8,273 bases of DNA from Candidatus Poribacteria bacterium (GTDB taxonomy: Bacteria > Poribacteria > WGA-4E > WGA-3G). A program made the position numbers and the translations under genes. The notes beneath the pieces are model-generated. The model made no database searches and had not been told where the DNA came from. It saw nothing but the letters and a program-made list of their open reading frames with translations. Of the stretch, positions 1,389-8,273 are shown one piece after another (position 1 is the first letter of the stretch; each line of letters starts with the position of its first letter). The DNA is taken from assembly GCA_028818995.1 (NCBI GenBank), contig JAPPMR010000620.1, positions 1-8,273 on the forward strand. The letters are read 5' to 3'.

Positions 1389-3029
1389 ATGCAAAATAAA
1401 CACCCAACAATCGGTAACTACCTTCTGAGAAAATTAAAGAGTTACGGAATTGATCACATTTTCGGTATACCTGGTGATTATGTCATACAGTTTTTTGATA
1501 TGATTGAACAGAGTCCTATTCAACATATCGGCACAACGCGAGAAGAAACAGCAGGATTTGCTGCCGATGCTTATGCCCGAACAAACGGCATAGGGGCTGC
1601 ATGTGTGACTTATGGTGTCGGTGGTTTATCTATGATCAACGCTGTCACTGCTGCCTACGCTGAAAAATCACCGCTTGTTGTCATTAGCGGTGCCCCAGGA
1701 ATAAAAGAGCGCACTGAGGGTGCCCTCTTGCACCATACAGGCAAAAATTTTTATACACAACAACGTATCTATGAAGAGATTACCGTGGCATCAGCACTAC
1801 TTGACGAACCTTTTACCGCCTTTAACGAGATAGATAGAGTGTTGGATGCTGTCTATTGGCATAAGCGTCCGGGCTACATTGAACTGCCACGTGATATGGT
1901 AAGTATACATGGGGCAGTCCACCAACGTCCTTCAACGGGTGAACACTACAGTGACCCAGAAATACTTGATGCCGCGTTAGTTAATGCCATTGCGTTTATA
2001 AATCAATCCGAAAATCCAGTCATTTTAGCGGGTGTTGAACTGCATAGATTCAGATTTAGGGACAAATTACTTCGGCTTGCAGAAGAAAAGCAGATTCCAG
2101 TGGTAACAACGTTGCTGGGAAAATCGGTTATGCCAGAGGCACATCCACTCTATTTAGGTATTTATGCTGGTGCAATGGGCAGAACAGAGATCACAACGCT
2201 TGTTGAAACTTCTGATTGTCTTATTATTCTTGGTGCTTTCATGACCGATGTCAACCTTGGAATTTACACGGCAAATCTTGCGCGAAGCCGTAGTGTCTAT
2301 GCTACCTCAGACAAAATCACAGTCTCTTACTCCACTTATGAAGATGTTATGTTTGAGGATTTTCTGGATGGTTTGTGTGCTCCAGAACTCGTCAAACGCC
2401 CCGATGTGGACTTGGAATGGGTATTGGAAGTGTCAGAACCCTTTGTTATGGTCCCCGACCAAATTCTAACAGTAAAACGCCTATTTCAACATCTCAATCA
2501 ATTTCTGAATGATGAACTGACGGTTATTCCTGATGTGGGTGACAGCCTTTGGGGTGCTGCGGATTTACGGCTCCCAGAGCAGACAGATTTTATTTCTCTT
2601 GCATATTATACCTCAATGGGGTTTTCAATTCCCGCTGCTATTGGCGCACAACTGGGCAAACCCGATTCCAGACCACTTGTAATTGTCGGAGATGGTGCCT
2701 TCCAAATGACAGGTACTGAACTTTCAACGACTATCCGCTACGGACTTAACCCGATTATCCTTGTTCTCAACAATCAAGGTTACGGTACCATGCGTCCTCT
2801 CGTTGAAGGACCTTTTAACGAGATAGAAAATTGGGACTATACCTGTGTCCCAGAACTCTTGGGCGCAGGACGCGCGTTTGCTGTCCGTACCGAGGGCGAA
2901 TTTGACACCGCTATGAAGGCTGCGCTTTCGGAAACGCAACATTTTGTCATGATTGAAGCAGAACTTGACAAATTAGACACATCGCCAGCACTTTCTCGTT
3001 TAGCAGAGCAGGTGTCTAAGAAAGTTTGA
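1389..3029 (+). CDS. Thiamine-diphosphate-dependent 2-oxo acid decarboxylase (phenylpyruvate/indolepyruvate type)
   Basis: 546 residues, normal for the pyruvate/indolepyruvate decarboxylase family, cytoplasmic. It is expected to convert an aromatic or branched 2-oxo acid to the aldehyde and CO2, as in Ehrlich-type amino acid catabolism or the indole-3-pyruvate route to indole acetate. Visible features: D30 in the GIPGDY turn, cofactor-activating E52 in TREETAGF, the HH pair at 115-116 typical of decarboxylases, D287 in MTDVN, YYTSMGF (406-412), and the metal/ThDP motif from GDG (434-436) to NN (461-462). The active-site Glu that follows NNxGY in pyruvate decarboxylases is replaced by Met468. 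Azospirillum brasilense phenylpyruvate decarboxylase likewise has a hydrophobic residue there (from memory), and VGDGAFQMTG and the C-terminal region also fit that branch. AGGGA at 1377-1381 is the ribosome-binding site. A TATAAT at 1371-1376 is too close to the start to be a confident promoter. No aminotransferase or aldehyde dehydrogenase lies nearby, so the substrate stays open. Confidence 0.95.
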   Translation: MQNKHPTIGNYLLRKLKSYGIDHIFGIPGDYVIQFFDMIEQSPIQHIGTTREETAGFAADAYARTNGIGAACVTYGVGGLSMINAVTAAYAEKSPLVVISGAPGIKERTEGALLHHTGKNFYTQQRIYEEITVASALLDEPFTAFNEIDRVLDAVYWHKRPGYIELPRDMVSIHGAVHQRPSTGEHYSDPEILDAALVNAIAFINQSENPVILAGVELHRFRFRDKLLRLAEEKQIPVVTTLLGKSVMPEAHPLYLGIYAGAMGRTEITTLVETSDCLIILGAFMTDVNLGIYTANLARSRSVYATSDKITVSYSTYEDVMFEDFLDGLCAPELVKRPDVDLEWVLEVSEPFVMVPDQILTVKRLFQHLNQFLNDELTVIPDVGDSLWGAADLRLPEQTDFISLAYYTSMGFSIPAAIGAQLGKPDSRPLVIVGDGAFQMTGTELSTTIRYGLNPIILVLNNQGYGTMRPLVEGPFNEIENWDYTCVPELLGAGRAFAVRTEGEFDTAMKAALSETQHFVMIEAELDKLDTSPALSRLAEQVSKKV

Positions 3030-3174: not shown

Positions 3175-3798
3175 ATGTTACAAACACCCCCAGAATCCGC
3201 AGTGATTCTCTTTGATGGAAAAGACCTTAGTAATTGGGTAGGTCGTGATGGTGGCGAACCGAAATGGAAAGTTGAAGATAACGCTATGATTGTTGAACCA
3301 CGCACGGGTGACATATCAAGCAAGGAAACCTTCACAGACCATTTCCTCCACCTTGAATTTATGTGCCCTGATATGCCAGAAGCAAGTGGACAGGCAAAAG
3401 GTAATAGTGGCGTTTTTTTTCAAGGCAGATATGAAATTCAGGTCTTGGATTCTTACGGTATTGATGTACCCGGGAAAGGCGATTGCGGTGCAATTTACAA
3501 TCAATTCGCACCACTTGTTAACGCGTGTAATCCCCCACTTCATTGGCAAACGTATGATGTTATCTTTCGTGCCCCTCGGTTCAACGATGCTGGTGAAATG
3601 ATTGAAAACGTCAGAGTGACAGCGATACAAAATGGATTGGTAATCCTTAATAACGTTCAGCTTCCAGGCACCACAGCTGGTGCTGATTCAGAGGTGGCTA
3701 AACCGGGGCCGCTACGTTTACAAGACCACGGCAATTTAGTTCAGTATCGAAACATCTGGGCTGTTCCGCTGCCGCTTGAGGGATCAGATCAATACTAA
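3175..3798 (+). CDS. DUF1080 / 3-keto-disaccharide hydrolase family protein
   Basis: 207 residues, consistent with a single DUF1080 domain (Pfam PF06439), a concanavalin-like beta-sandwich fold related to glycoside hydrolases; members are annotated as 3-keto-disaccharide hydrolases. Family landmarks in order: LFDGKDLSNW (12-21), a KWKVED strand, GNSGVFFQGRYEIQVLDSYG (76-95), CGAIYNQFAP (104-113), WQTYDVIFRAPRF (124-136) and a closing LRLQDHG...QYRNIW strand pair. The start is supported by AAGGA about six bases upstream of the ATG. Unlike many family members it has no signal peptide, so it is predicted to be cytoplasmic unless the start is misassigned. A run of eight T (3413-3420) lies inside the gene. 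It has its own promoter and a hairpin 25 bp after the stop. Substrate and reaction are assigned by family only; no sugar oxidoreductase partner is nearby. Confidence 0.9.
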   Translation: MLQTPPESAVILFDGKDLSNWVGRDGGEPKWKVEDNAMIVEPRTGDISSKETFTDHFLHLEFMCPDMPEASGQAKGNSGVFFQGRYEIQVLDSYGIDVPGKGDCGAIYNQFAPLVNACNPPLHWQTYDVIFRAPRFNDAGEMIENVRVTAIQNGLVILNNVQLPGTTAGADSEVAKPGPLRLQDHGNLVQYRNIWAVPLPLEGSDQY

Positions 3799-3823: not shown

Positions 3824-3854
3824 TTGTAGGCGAGATTTCAAAACTCGCCTACAA
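3824..3854 (+). terminator. Hairpin after the DUF1080 gene
   Basis: TTGTAGGCGAG (3824-3834) and CTCGCCTACAA (3844-3854) form a perfect 11-bp stem with a 9-nt loop, 25 bp after the stop codon. No T-run follows, so it is not a textbook intrinsic terminator. It may slow polymerase or protect the 3' end, or it may be a dispersed hairpin repeat. Confidence 0.5.
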
Positions 3855-3889
3855 TAGACATTATAATGACAGGACTTACGCATTTCCTA

Positions 3890-3916
3890 TTAAAGCCCCT
3901 TGATAAGGGGCTTTAA
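3890..3916. terminator. GC-rich hairpin, possibly a bidirectional terminator
   Basis: TTAAAGCCCCTT (3890-3901) and AAGGGGCTTTAA (3905-3916) pair perfectly over 12 bp with a 3-nt loop. The stem has a CCCC/GGGG core with A/T-rich ends on both sides, as in bidirectional terminators, but the T-tract is only three bases. It lies just inside the left end of the candidate mobile element and could end transcripts that read through from the DUF1080 gene. Confidence 0.5.
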
Positions 3917-4320: not shown

Positions 4321-4436
4321 TCTTGATTTGGCGCATTCACCAAGCATAATTCATTGTGGGTTTTTAGTGATATATCTCAATTTTGCTGATTGTTTCGGAC
4401 TTTTGCATAAGTCCTGTTTAAAAGGAATTTCAAAAT

Positions 4437-7400
4437 ATGAATAGAAAAGGAATAGTTTTAATTTTGGTGGTTACCTTGTTTGCATTTATTGCACAGGGCA
4501 TTTCTGCGGCAGCCCAGGACAAAATTTACTGGACAGACGGCTCTTGGGAGGGTAAGATTCGGCGTGCGAACCTTGATGGTTCGGGAATAGAAGACCTCAT
4601 CACTGGACTTACTTGGCCGTCTGACCTTGCGTTGGATGTGTCGGGTGGTAAGATGTATTGGATAGTCGAAGACTATGTCGGCTTTTGGCAGAGTAAGATT
4701 CAGCGTGCGAATCTTGATGGTTCGGGAATAGAAGACCTCGTCACTTTTAGGGGATCGCTGGCCCCCGAGAGCCTTGCGTTGGATGTGTCGGGTGGTAAGA
4801 TGTATTGGATATACTTTGATAAGATTCAGGGTGCGAACCTTGATGGCACATTTGTATACGACCTCTTCACTCCGGGATGGGGTTTTCCAGCTGACCTTGC
4901 GTTGGATGTGTCGGGTGGTCAGATGTATTGGATAGGGCAGACAGAGTGGTCGGGTAAGATTCAACGTGCAAGCCTGCGTGGTTGGGGTGCACAAGATCTC
5001 GTCACTGAATTGAAAGTCCCTCGTGACCTTGCGTTGGATGTGTCGGGTGGTCAGATGTATTGGACAGACCATGGCACGGGCGGCCATGGCACGGGTAAGA
5101 TTCAGGGTGCGAACCTTGATGGCACAAGTGTCCAAGACTTCGTCACTACAGGATTGAAATTCCCATCTGATCTTGTGTTGGATGTGTCGGGTGGTAAGAT
5201 GTATTGGACAGACTCTGGTAAGATTCAGCGTGCGAACCTTGATGGTTCGGGGATAGAAGACCTTGTCACTGGATTGGAAAGCCTGGATGGTCTTGCCATT
5301 GCGTTGGATGTGCCGGTGGTATCGCCCCCACCCACAGAACCTACTGAAGGTAAGATGTATTGGATAGAACAAGGTTCGGATAAAGTGCGTAGTGCGAACC
5401 TTGATGGCACGAATGTGCAAGACCTCGTCACCAAGGGTTTATATAATCCATACGGTATTGCATTAGATGTGTCGGGTAGCAAGATGTATTGGACTGACTG
5501 GGAAACGGATAAAATTCAGCGTGCGAACCTCAGCGGCACAAACGTGGAAACGCTCCTATCAGGATTAACTAACCCAAATGGTATTGCATTAGATGTCTCA
5601 GGTGGCAAGATGTATTGGGCTGATAGTGCCACGGATAAGATTCAGCGTGCGAACCTCAACGGCACGAATGTGGAAACGCTCGTTTTAGGATTGGGTAACC
5701 CGACAGGTATTACGTTAGATGTGTCGGGTGGCAAGATGTATTGGACTGACTGGGAAACGGATAAAATTCAGCGTGCGAACCTCAACGGCACGAATGTGGA
5801 AACGCTCGTTTTAGGATTGGGTAACCCGACAGGTATTACGTTAGATGTGTCGGGTGGCAAGATGTATTGGACTGACTGGGAAACGGATAAAATTCAGCGT
5901 GCGAACCTCAACGGCACGAATGTGGAAACGCTCGTTTCAGGATTGGGTGACCCGATAGGTATTACATTAGATATGTCGGGTGGCAAGATGTATTGGGTAG
6001 AATATTCAGCGCATAGAATCCAGCGTGCGAACCTCAACGGCACGAATGTGGAAATGCTCGTTTCAGGATTGAATTACCCGATAGGTATTGCATTAGATGT
6101 GTCAGGCGTTACTCCTCCATCCACGGATGGAGATGTCACCAGCGTCCCTTTGACAGATACGACGAATCTCCACTTAACTGAACACACCGGAGATGTCCGC
6201 TGCGTTGCCTATAGTCCGTGGGGTGTTGTCCTCGCCAGCGGTGGCACAGACGATATGATGCGGTTATGGCGTACCAGTACAGGACAACCTTTGTCCACCT
6301 ATAAGCATGAAGGAGATGTTAACAGTATTGCCTTTAGTCCGAATGACACCTATATTGCCAGTGGTAGTGATGCTGGGAAGTTACGCTTGTATAAGTGGAA
6401 CACGGCAGCGGATACTTGGGTGGAGTCCCAAGTCTTTAACATTCCCGGCAATCCGTTAGCAAACAATGTCAAGAGTGTCGCCTTTAGCCTTGATAACACG
6501 ATGCTGGCGTGCGGCACGAGTGGAAACAGTGTGCGTATCTATGATTACGATTCGGACCTGGACGAGTGGGTCTACCGCGAAACGTTTCAAGGACATAGGG
6601 GCAGTGTCAATAGCGTCGCTTTTAGTCCGCACGGGGTTGTTCTTGCCAGTGCAAGCGATGACGACACGGTGCAGTTATGGCGTGCGCGCACAGGTCAACG
6701 GCTTGCCACGCTTGACAGGCATACTGCAGATGTCAATAGCGTCGCTTTCAGTCGTGATGATGCCTTCATTGCCACTGGCAGCGATGACGACACCGTGATC
6801 CTGTGGAAATGGAGTGTTGAAGCGGATACATGGGTACATCATCGCACCCTTGAAGAACCGGATGCGGATGTGCGGAGTGTCACCTTCAATCCGAGTGGCA
6901 CAGTGCTGCTGGGTGGGTGTGCAGATAATACCGTCCAGGTATGGGACGGTAAAACAGGGGACTATCATGCCTTCCTGCAAGAGCATAGTGGTGCTGTTAA
7001 TAGCGTTGCGTTTAACTTTCAAGGAACTGCGATCGCGAGTGGGAGTGATGATGGCACGGTGCGGCAGTTTGCATACACAGAATTAGCGGACATCACACAC
7101 AGAGGAATCGATTTGACGGTGCCGTCGGATCTCATCTCTCAGATCGCGTTTGGTCCAAACTCGACCTACTTCGTCTTGAACGCGCAATATCCAATACTGA
7201 CAAGTGATTCGGGCGATTTTTCCTATGGAAAGTGCATCATAACACTTGATTTGCCTGATGTACCAGACAATACACTACGTGCGATCGCTTGGCAAACACT
7301 ATTGGAAAGATTCGTCCAAGCCGTTGATGAGATCGATAGGACAATACCTCTTTTTCAGTTTTTGGACAGGCTTGGTATCAATCCTTTTGATTTTATTGCG

Positions 7401-8273
7401 GATGTGCTGTCTGTTTCCTTCCTAACAAATACGCGGAAATATTTTATGTTCCCTCTCGAAACAATGCAACAAACCAGAGATAAGATACAGGAGGAGGCGA
7501 TCCGAAGCCAAAATATAACGCTGATTGCCGCTGCTGTTGGATCGGTCCCTCTTTTAGGTGACGTAGGAGGAGTGGTAATAAGTTTGGGTGCTATAGAATT
7601 GCAAAGACTGTTTGCCCTGATAGAACTTGTGCAATCTACCATGGATCCCAAAATTCACTTAAACCCAGGGATCGGTGGTATTGCCAATGCTATCATTGGG
7701 GGCGGTAATATTCTCGATGTTGTGATTGACTTTTTCGATCATGATAAACGACCTGATGACCGACTACGGTATCTGGTTTACATTCCGAAACAGATAGAGG
7801 AGATAGGCATTAAGATAGAACAAAAGTATAGTTTCAAAGGCAAGACTCGGGAGTTGACGTATAAGGGAACATGGAATTTGGCAGATAGCACCTTGACGGG
7901 CACCTTAGCGGCCCCGAATGCACAACCGATGTCCTTGTCAAAGTATCCACCATTTCAACAGCTTTCACCAGAAGTGCAAGAATATCTCCTCCGTCAGTTA
8001 GGTGAGTTTGTAAACACCGAGGCATGGCAGATTCCAGAGGAGACATCGCTATTGCCAAACTATCCGAACCCATTCAACCCAGAAACCTGGATACCGTATC
8101 AGTTGGCAAAACCTGCGGATGTGAAGTTGACGATCTATGACATCAACGGACACGTGGTGCGTGCTTTAGATTTAGGGCATCAACGGGCAGGTATTTATCG
8201 CAGTCGGAGCCGTGCGGCACATTGGGATGGTCGCAATGCGCAAGGTGAACCAGTGGCAAGTGGTGTCTATTTC
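4437..8273 (+). CDS. Very large secreted triple beta-propeller protein (YWTD x6, YWTD x6, WD40 x7) with FlgD-like tail; 3' end cut off
   Basis: 1279 codons without a stop, open to the right edge. The start is supported by AAGGA at 4422-4426 and an immediate signal peptide: N-R-K, hydrophobic residues 6-19, cleavage likely near 24-26 (SAAAQ). Six LDL-receptor class B (YWTD) repeats span about 29-305, a PPPTEPTEG linker follows, then six more at 306-557 and seven WD40 repeats at about 577-882. Since YWTD repeats make six-bladed and WD40 repeats usually seven-bladed propellers, three complete propellers are predicted. Residues 883-1204 are unrecognised, with hydrophobic, Gly-rich stretches at 1026-1055 and 1078-1100. 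From 1205 a FlgD-like/secretion-tail domain begins (YPNPFNPETW, IYDING, WDG, SGVYF). Such tails usually end soon after SGVYF, so little is probably missing. It is probably an extracellular or surface scaffold for protein or glycan binding; no catalytic motif is seen. The start lies 19 bp after a candidate mobile element, which may have replaced its native promoter. Confidence 0.95.
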   Translation, partial: MNRKGIVLILVVTLFAFIAQGISAAAQDKIYWTDGSWEGKIRRANLDGSGIEDLITGLTWPSDLALDVSGGKMYWIVEDYVGFWQSKIQRANLDGSGIEDLVTFRGSLAPESLALDVSGGKMYWIYFDKIQGANLDGTFVYDLFTPGWGFPADLALDVSGGQMYWIGQTEWSGKIQRASLRGWGAQDLVTELKVPRDLALDVSGGQMYWTDHGTGGHGTGKIQGANLDGTSVQDFVTTGLKFPSDLVLDVSGGKMYWTDSGKIQRANLDGSGIEDLVTGLESLDGLAIALDVPVVSPPPTEPTEGKMYWIEQGSDKVRSANLDGTNVQDLVTKGLYNPYGIALDVSGSKMYWTDWETDKIQRANLSGTNVETLLSGLTNPNGIALDVSGGKMYWADSATDKIQRANLNGTNVETLVLGLGNPTGITLDVSGGKMYWTDWETDKIQRANLNGTNVETLVLGLGNPTGITLDVSGGKMYWTDWETDKIQRANLNGTNVETLVSGLGDPIGITLDMSGGKMYWVEYSAHRIQRANLNGTNVEMLVSGLNYPIGIALDVSGVTPPSTDGDVTSVPLTDTTNLHLTEHTGDVRCVAYSPWGVVLASGGTDDMMRLWRTSTGQPLSTYKHEGDVNSIAFSPNDTYIASGSDAGKLRLYKWNTAADTWVESQVFNIPGNPLANNVKSVAFSLDNTMLACGTSGNSVRIYDYDSDLDEWVYRETFQGHRGSVNSVAFSPHGVVLASASDDDTVQLWRARTGQRLATLDRHTADVNSVAFSRDDAFIATGSDDDTVILWKWSVEADTWVHHRTLEEPDADVRSVTFNPSGTVLLGGCADNTVQVWDGKTGDYHAFLQEHSGAVNSVAFNFQGTAIASGSDDGTVRQFAYTELADITHRGIDLTVPSDLISQIAFGPNSTYFVLNAQYPILTSDSGDFSYGKCIITLDLPDVPDNTLRAIAWQTLLERFVQAVDEIDRTIPLFQFLDRLGINPFDFIADVLSVSFLTNTRKYFMFPLETMQQTRDKIQEEAIRSQNITLIAAAVGSVPLLGDVGGVVISLGAIELQRLFALIELVQSTMDPKIHLNPGIGGIANAIIGGGNILDVVIDFFDHDKRPDDRLRYLVYIPKQIEEIGIKIEQKYSFKGKTRELTYKGTWNLADSTLTGTLAAPNAQPMSLSKYPPFQQLSPEVQEYLLRQLGEFVNTEAWQIPEETSLLPNYPNPFNPETWIPYQLAKPADVKLTIYDINGHVVRALDLGHQRAGIYRSRSRAAHWDGRNAQGEPVASGVYF
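4521..5351 (+). repeat. First YWTD propeller: six divergent blades
   Basis: Blade starts (the K/Q of KxYW) are at 4521, 4650, 4797, 4920, 5052 and 5196. Unit length varies: 129, 147, 123, 132 and 144 bp, and 156 bp for the sixth including the linker. Each unit reads (K/Q)(I/M)YW, a variable loop, KIQ(R/G)A(N/S)L, a strand ending in a DLVT-like motif, and a (D/S)LALDVSGG turn. Blades 2, 3 and 4 have lost the TD of YWTD (YWIV, YWIY, YWIG). The sixth blade breaks off into the proline linker instead of the SGG turn. Confidence 0.9.
5352..6107 (+). repeat. Second YWTD propeller: six regular 126-bp blades
   Basis: Blades start at 5352, 5481, 5607, 5733, 5859 and 5985. Spacing is 129 bp once, then exactly 126 bp (42 residues). 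The consensus differs from propeller 1: ANLNGTNVETL with codons AAC CTC AAC GGC, against ANLDG with AAC CTT GAT GG(T/C). Each propeller therefore seems to have expanded from its own founder blade. The last blade ends in LDVSG before a second short Pro/Thr linker. Confidence 0.9.
5640..5937 (+). repeat. Recent tandem duplication of one propeller blade
   Basis: Positions 5640-5811 are identical, base for base, to 5766-5937 (172 bp at an offset of 126 bp), including all silent positions. Blades 10 and 11 differ at only 5 of 126 bases, all in the last third. This indicates recent unequal exchange or replication slippage by one blade unit, or gene conversion between blades. It is also a likely place for read-assembly collapse. 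Confidence 0.9.
6165..7082 (+). repeat. WD40 propeller: seven blades
   Basis: Seven units share a GDVxSVAFSP-like strand, an (A/T)SGSDDxTV-like turn and a (L/V)W(R/K/D) end. The WD dipeptide itself survives only in blade 6 (QVWDGKTG); others have LWR, LYK, IYD, LWK and QFA. Blades 2, 3 and 5 carry a longer final strand with a DxWV motif, while 1, 4 and 6 have the short TGQ/TGD type turn. Compared with the YWTD blades these are far more diverged at the DNA level, so there is no sign of recent duplication. Confidence 0.9.
7083..8048 (+). other. Unrecognised region of the large protein (residues ~883-1204)
   Basis: About 320 residues between the WD40 propeller and the C-terminal tail have no repeat and no family I can name. 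Visible features are a hydrophobic, Gly/Val-rich stretch (1026-1055, containing SVPLLGD), a second one (1078-1100, GIGGIANAIIGGG), then a charged segment DHDKRPDDR and a beta-rich part (KYSFKGKTRELTYKGTW). The hydrophobic parts could be amphipathic or membrane-inserting helices. A membrane anchor before the secretion-type tail would be unusual. Confidence 0.6.
8049..8273 (+). other. FlgD-like / secretion-tail domain, cut by the window edge
   Basis: Residues 1205-1279 contain YPNPFNPETWIPYQL, then VKLTIYDINGHVVRAL, a Gly-containing turn, HWDGRNAQGEPVASGVYF. This order is diagnostic of the FlgD Ig-like and type IX secretion sorting tail families at the C-terminus of many large exported proteins. 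Which secretion route is used here cannot be decided from this window, since no secretion genes are present. Confidence 0.85.

Follow-up and report, generated by a model that had tools for sequence, protein, structure and literature searches.

A predicted exported poribacterial protein with beta-propeller rings of six, six and seven blades and a type-A-like sorting tail

The window analysed here, a poribacterial contig of 8,273 nucleotides taken at its full length, ends in a gene for a protein that combines two groups of YWTD blades with one group of WD40 blades; three rings of 6 + 6 + 7 blades are predicted, and the structure model supports this. We regard it as probable (roughly 0.6) that this is a modular surface-binding protein, which would be exported by the Sec route, displayed by a T9SS-like apparatus and furnished with rings as binding platforms, and whose family, by the evidence of sequence, evolves by altering its repertoire of rings and blades.

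The reading frame lies on the forward strand, begins with an ATG at 4437 and comprises 1279 codons (1279 aa) that stay open to the last base at 8273, in agreement with the coordinates and frame given by an earlier sequence-only reading of this stretch. As the window is an entire contig and the frame runs off its end, about 20 residues of the tail are missing, judging from the relatives. From its N-terminus the protein consists of a signal-peptide-like start, six YWTD blades, a further six YWTD blades, seven WD40 blades, a module specific to the lineage and a sorting tail of FlgD-Ig/type-A kind, located as follows:

4420-4427, plus strand: Shine-Dalgarno-like AAAAGGAA, separated from the ATG by 9 nt, seen in the sequence
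4437-4511, plus strand: signal-peptide-like start, aa 1-25, with a short basic end, a hydrophobic core and an AxA-type site, judged by sequence
4521-5315, plus strand: YWTD ring 1, six blades, aa 29-293, from the blade HMM, 24 AF2 strands and sequence matches to PDB entries
5316-5351, plus strand: proline-rich linker VVSPPPTEPTEG, aa 294-305, from the sequence and low pLDDT
5352-6110, plus strand: YWTD ring 2, six blades, aa 306-558, from the blade HMM and AF2
6168-7082, plus strand: WD40 ring, seven blades, aa 578-882
7083-8030, plus strand: middle module, aa 883-1198, with beta strands that surround a helical, hydrophobic insert, no Pfam family
8031-8273, plus strand: FlgD-Ig/T9SS type-A-like sorting tail, aa 1199-1279, incomplete at the contig end, PF13860

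Hydropathy over 19 residues peaks, for the whole protein, within the first 25 residues, whose signal-peptide-like character agrees with the putative secretion proposed earlier. Searched as a whole, the protein matched the Pfam families Ldl_recept_b (E 1.6e-69), WD40 (E 1.9e-59) and FlgD_ig (E 3.9e-10), the last of which bears out the FlgD-like tail proposed previously; the tandem PF00058 (LDL-receptor class B/YWTD) matches reached 230.5 bits against a cut-off of 21 and PF00400 (WD40) 196 bits against 27. Blade HMMs built in this analysis placed the blades of ring 1 at aa 29-71, 72-120, 121-161, 162-205, 206-253 and 254-293, those of ring 2 at aa 306-348, 349-390, 391-432, 433-474, 475-516 and 517-558, and the seven WD40 blades at aa 587-888. 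The proline linker that had been noted between the YWTD rings was confirmed.

In the AF2 model of aa 26-900 (mean pLDDT 87.4), the three regions contain 24, 24 and 28 strands, equal to 6x4, 6x4 and 7x4, and the only stretches with pLDDT below 50 are both linkers and the 14 residues at the end. The pTM of 0.45 means that the relative arrangement of the three rings is not predicted. The WD40 ring was superposed on the solved seven-bladed 7big with VIA-align (285 of the 286 residues of 7big aligned, 1.4 A), and the VIA-align rows listed cover mostly this part of the protein; the YWTD rings were matched to LRP rings by Foldseek. The 6 + 6 + 7 count of the sequence-only reading is thus upheld by the blade HMM counts together with the modelled strands. 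Of the three closed rings that it had expected from structure prediction, all agree in their strand counts, and superposition adds support for the WD40 ring.

Related proteins point to the same whole-ring logic. A protein search returned 4764 of 7993 scored candidates at E <= 1e-3; 120 matches, the window's own included, were listed, of which ten and thirteen served as seeds for the blade HMMs. Among the 120, YWTD totals were a multiple of six in 95 of the 112 proteins with at least four YWTD blades, and WD40 totals a multiple of seven in 22 of the 25 with at least four WD40 blades; these proteins, which include the window's, are interrelated, so that the 112 do not represent independent trials. 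Counted by cluster, 254 of the 276 YWTD clusters in the listed matches were multiples of six and 241 held exactly six blades. Given the Pfam E-values and these multiples, the ring counts are not due to chance. Some exceptions among the matches listed (7, 11, 13-15, 17, 23, 29 and 35 YWTD blades; 6, 16 and 17 WD40 blades) may be due to truncation of the protein or to blades that were overlooked. Eighteen YWTD blades were present in 55 of the 120.

The combination of both repeat types, with at least four blades each, was found in 17 of the 120 matches listed, counting the window protein. The earlier view that the architecture is uncommon is supported. In 16 of the 17 dual-type proteins listed, all YWTD blades precede the WD40 blades. 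An identical order of parts was kept at 52-56% identity in P0002-P0005, which are encoded on other contigs, two of these longer than 5.7 Mb; this argues against an assembly chimera, the joining error that the sequence-only reading had named as a possible refutation. The matches listed that carry an organism name are all bacterial (P0023 from Poribacteria, P0055 and P0070 from Gemmatimonadaceae), and one contig scan added three further relatives in Gemmatimonadetes, Phycisphaerales and Desulfobacteraceae records. Matches to PF00058 above the cut-off occurred in 38 of 58 related genomes, against 0/14 control genomes. In the light of these matches, the earlier statement that YWTD propellers are known mainly from animals was not borne out.

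Variability within the YWTD blades suggests where binding might take place. In 149 blades from the 17 dual-type proteins it was concentrated in the loop after the YWTD motif and in the GLxxPxG loop, and mean entropy was 2.70 bits in these two loops of one face versus 1.25 in the two loops of the other, with the loop columns assigned after the entropy table had been inspected. In the AF2 model both variable loops come after alternate antiparallel strands and hence share one side of the blade, which would correspond to the face where LRP propellers usually bind their ligands. Loop variability may instead reflect relaxed constraint. The simplest reading of a variable face, in view of the sequences and the model, would be a binder displayed on the surface; any choice of ligand, such as a matrix polysaccharide or a glycoprotein, is guesswork.

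The C-terminal half of the protein is shared among proteins with different parts at the other end. The middle module (aa 883-1198) matched no Pfam family, and its low-confidence AF2 model (pLDDT 60.5), in which the hydrophobic helical insert occupies about aa 946-1067, had 0.21 as its best Foldseek E-value and thus nothing at E <= 0.001. Carriers of the module are known from 9 of the 59 related genomes and from 2 of 19 genera. Its four closest carriers, at 71-77% identity, are P0006, P0121, P0122 and P0020. P0006 has YWTD and WD40 blades as in the window protein. P0121, P0122 and P0020 (71-73%), as well as P0123 (60%), carry other N-termini on the module, namely M23 + CARDB, PPC, a lone YWTD ring, and cohesin + CARDB. 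Such different N-termini on a common middle module and tail show the C-terminal half to be a chassis for varied parts.

The cohesin + CARDB and M23 + CARDB proteins, which share the module and tail, also speak for the alternative that the window protein, instead of being a receptor or adhesin, serves an extracellular degradation or matrix system as an accessory that binds the substrate, and so does the 3-keto-disaccharide hydrolase (PF06439, E 1.1e-40) encoded upstream at 3175-3798. However, no enzyme domain appeared among the Pfam families of the protein (best 25 of 50), and the hydrolase gene lies 638 bases away with terminator-like hairpins in between, which makes co-transcription doubtful. 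This role, which is compatible with the surface-binding protein that we favour, is in our opinion possible but rather doubtful. A reading of the protein as an enzyme itself was rejected, since its matches to streptogramin lyase and ScyF were weak and far below the cut-offs.

In the tail of the window protein the cut-off of PF13860 FlgD_ig was exceeded (40 versus 27 bits), whereas TIGR04183, the model for T9SS type A sorting, gave the incomplete tail 20.0 bits against a cut-off of 23. This pattern would fit a tail that is a FlgD-like Ig end cap and not a sorting signal, in a protein that stays in the periplasm, where its rings would act, or leaves by another exit. Against this, the full-length relatives P0003 (34.9 bits) and P0005 (35.2 bits) both exceed the TIGR04183 cut-off. 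The model was also exceeded in 21/21 related genomes, with 32-82 matches in each at E <= 1e-3, while in the control genomes there were matches in 2/14 and matches above the cut-off in 1/14.

Components resembling a T9SS were looked for in relatives of the window's genome, the nearest of which shares 29% of sampled words. The SprA model matched in 57 of 58 related genomes and in 0/14 controls; in most of these genomes the matches listed fall, as several segments, into a single frame some 2000-2300 residues long. Its equivalog cut-off of 200 bits was exceeded in 1 of the 58, and P0177, P0186 and P0232 scored 158-182 against this value. The SprA-like family, represented by the related genome G010 and its relatives, aligned with a Zixibacteria SprA-headed profile over 1138 columns (HHalign 100%, E 2.7e-78), a profile made of three proteins that are all matches of the same SprA-like search; Zixibacteria SprA in turn matches F. 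johnsoniae SprA 6h3i at E 1.4e-43 and scores 596.8 bits with the SprA model. Compared with the PDB, the SprA-like profile found no SprA chain, even at E 10. The G010 representative is a 2140-aa protein (L038:6677-13099), and its homologues named as Poribacteria (P0186, P0232, P0249 and P0250) are annotated as 'hypothetical protein' in three cases and as 'LysM ... protein' in one.

The PorU model matched in 21/21 related genomes, in none of them above the cut-off of 420 bits, and below the cut-off it also matched 2/14 controls, Thermotoga maritima and Haloferax volcanii. One PorU-like frame of G010 reached 418 of the 420 bits, contains Peptidase_C25 with its propeptide and matches the solved PorU 6za2 at E 4.7e-33. 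The PorV_fam model was above its cut-off in 21/21 related genomes and matched in 1/14 controls, there below the cut-off; with 11-21 matches per related genome, it describes a broad family. The PorV-family neighbour of the G010 PorU-like gene scored 23 bits with the PorV equivalog against a cut-off of 250, and a comparison of the PorV-like protein with the PDB found no relative. A PorV-family match adjoins a PorU-like gene in at least 16 of 21 genomes (coordinates read by eye, among the matches listed), one of them, G013, with a PorV_fam match below the cut-off; for the genus of the nearest genome the adjacency holds in 13/13 genomes among the matches listed. Three PorU-like loci were seen in G010 among the matches listed, and at one of them a 2147-aa PorU-like C25 protein with a FlgD-Ig tail of its own (L044:3208-9651) lies next to the PorV-family protein at L044:2103-3107.

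Searches for the motor proteins, run without a positive control, found GldM in 0/30 and GldL in 0/21 related genomes, a further point in favour of an end cap. Because SprA and PorU are mostly under their cut-offs, PorV_fam is broad and no GldL/GldM motor was found, we speak of a 'T9SS-like' system and not of a T9SS. Nevertheless, the relatives combine tens of TIGR04183 tails in each genome with genes resembling SprA, PorU and PorV, and we consider it unlikely that the tail is an end cap in a periplasmic protein.

The modular surface-binding protein that we prefer would therefore work in the following way. Judged from its N-terminus, it would be exported by Sec, after which the C-terminal Ig-like tail would be recognised by a T9SS-like outer-membrane apparatus, homologues of which occur in related genomes. 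This apparatus would consist of a SprA-like translocon, a PorV-like shuttle and a PorU-like sortase and would hand the protein on to the cell surface; once there, its tail may be cleaved by the sortase and the product attached or released. The rings, folded as predicted, would act as rigid binding platforms, and the variable YWTD loops on one ring face would form the surface that contacts the ligand. Sequence comparison shows the repertoire to evolve in two ways: entire rings on the tail are exchanged or duplicated, and individual blades are copied within a ring, with the count remaining at six.

Both kinds of copying have left traces. The three YWTD rings of P0007 are 91-97% identical blade-for-blade in register and 44-49% out of register, which indicates that a six-blade ring was copied as a unit. 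Between ring 1 and ring 2 of the window protein, identity was 0.53-0.56 at every register without a preference, so that a whole-ring duplication as the origin of these two rings was unsupported; later homogenisation could have wiped out the register signal. Within ring 2, blades 8-11 show 82-96% DNA identity, with dS down to 0.036, and blades 9-11 differ at 4-10% of bases; such near-identical DNA shows that single blades were copied or converted within the ring while the count still remained six. In 14 of 15 pairs of ring-2 blades dS was larger than dN, and in pair 10-11 dN was slightly larger than dS.

The small divergence of blades 9-11 and the missing register preference would also be expected if blades multiplied neutrally by recombination without any function, but the counts hold mostly at multiples of six or seven, dS exceeds dN in nearly all ring-2 pairs, P0007 tripled a whole ring and the frame of the window gene is open throughout, which together make a neutral expansion very improbable.

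Tandem six-bladed YWTD rings are also found in the animal proteins LRP4, LRP6 and LRP2 (8s9p, 6l6r and 8jut), which gave the best Foldseek and sequence matches among solved structures, and by sequence the top solved structures for the YWTD rings were LRP2, LRP4, LRP6 and LDLR. This ranking says little, since these are the solved YWTD proteins. The four cysteines of the window protein are at positions 589, 692, 828 and 933 and none lies in aa 26-560; the cysteine-rich EGF modules that lie beside the ring in animal receptors of the LDL-receptor family are therefore absent. Unlike the LRP proteins, the window protein also has a WD40 ring after its YWTD rings and a sorting tail in place of a membrane anchor. 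The mimicry idea of the sequence-only reading, in which a host-associated bacterium would imitate an animal protein of the LDL-receptor type and to which the LRP and LDLR matches lend some colour, thus finds no support beyond the fold and is the least credible explanation, given cysteine-free rings, many non-animal relatives, and many uncharacterised proteins that match better by sequence, the large group with 18 YWTD blades among them.

Parts of this picture have been described before. Kamke et al. (2014, PMC3909097), in the portion of the paper available to us, reported class B repeats and abundant WD40 repeats in Poribacteria, judged the class B proteins to be at the cell surface and noted that many of these genes, above all those with WD40, carry a Por-type sorting tail, while structural genes of the Por secretion system were not found at that time. 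Since both repeats and the Por-type tails are already known in Poribacteria from that text, the window protein is a variant of those proteins. What the same portion does not describe is the joining of the two repeat types, the whole-ring counts or the middle module.

Among other known propellers, the WRAP-type WD40 rings (7big, 7bie) and the repetitive propeller 2ymu differ in that the ring here is one of three exported rings and its blades are diversified. The 18-blade proteins P0055 and P0070 of Gemmatimonadaceae likewise have YWTD blades in clusters of six, three clusters in their case, and the name given to P0055 mentions a T9SS type A sorting domain; they differ by spacers of ~110 residues between the clusters and by having no WD40 blades. 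With the T9SS of Bacteroidota, the related genomes share homologues of SprA/Sov, PorU and PorV, yet SprA and PorU are mostly under the equivalog cut-offs, GldL and GldM gave no match and the tail is of FlgD-Ig form.

The family thus illustrates, at the level of sequence, how proteins can grow by duplication of whole rings and copying of blades within a ring while the blade count is nearly fixed. SprA-like genes in 57/58 relatives and PorU- and PorV-like genes in 21/21 offer a possible answer to the gap left in 2014 (PMC3909097, available portion), and one that is directly testable. Abby et al. (2016, PMC4793230) found T9SS in Bacteroidetes only, and a 2024 paper (PMC11285876) listed the FCB phyla and stated that T9SS genes are absent elsewhere, in both cases according to the sections accessible to us; T9SS-like genes in the present genomes would qualify the latter statement. 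The literature searched, as far as its texts were available, held no report of a T9SS in Poribacteria or of the architecture of YWTD, WD40 and tail. We would extend the argument, with a little less than even confidence, to Poribacteria and their kin in general, which may display a large and fast-evolving set of exported multi-ring binders with interchangeable six- and seven-bladed propellers and a common tail, served by an unrecognised, divergent T9SS-like pathway with SprA-, PorV- and PorU-like parts and perhaps without a GldL/GldM motor. In the NCBI taxonomy, both Entoporibacteria and Pelagiporibacteria are listed.

The upstream part of the window contains further genes. A lipoprotein-like frame at 448-1215 has an LTGC lipobox and two tandem copies of a ~100-aa domain, and matched no Pfam or NCBIfam model at E <= 1e-3. 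At 1389-3029 a thiamine-pyrophosphate enzyme is encoded that is nearest to indolepyruvate/phenylpyruvate decarboxylase, below the cut-off (411 versus 554.5 bits). The hydrolase gene is followed by two near-perfect terminator-like hairpins at 3824-3854 and 3890-3916.

Two observations concern mobile DNA. In the related genome G035 (L039), the full-length relative of the window protein lies between two transposase-like frames at 927-1763 and 10932-11774 (identified by eye), which hints at possible mobility of these genes. Just upstream of the gene in the window, a 14-base sequence and its inverted copy with one mismatch (3869-3882 and 4404-4417) span 549 bp, a pair that we take to resemble the ends of a small mobile element. 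The 14-base sequence gave 2 matches versus 0.04 expected, and one more exact copy is present in G010 (L038).
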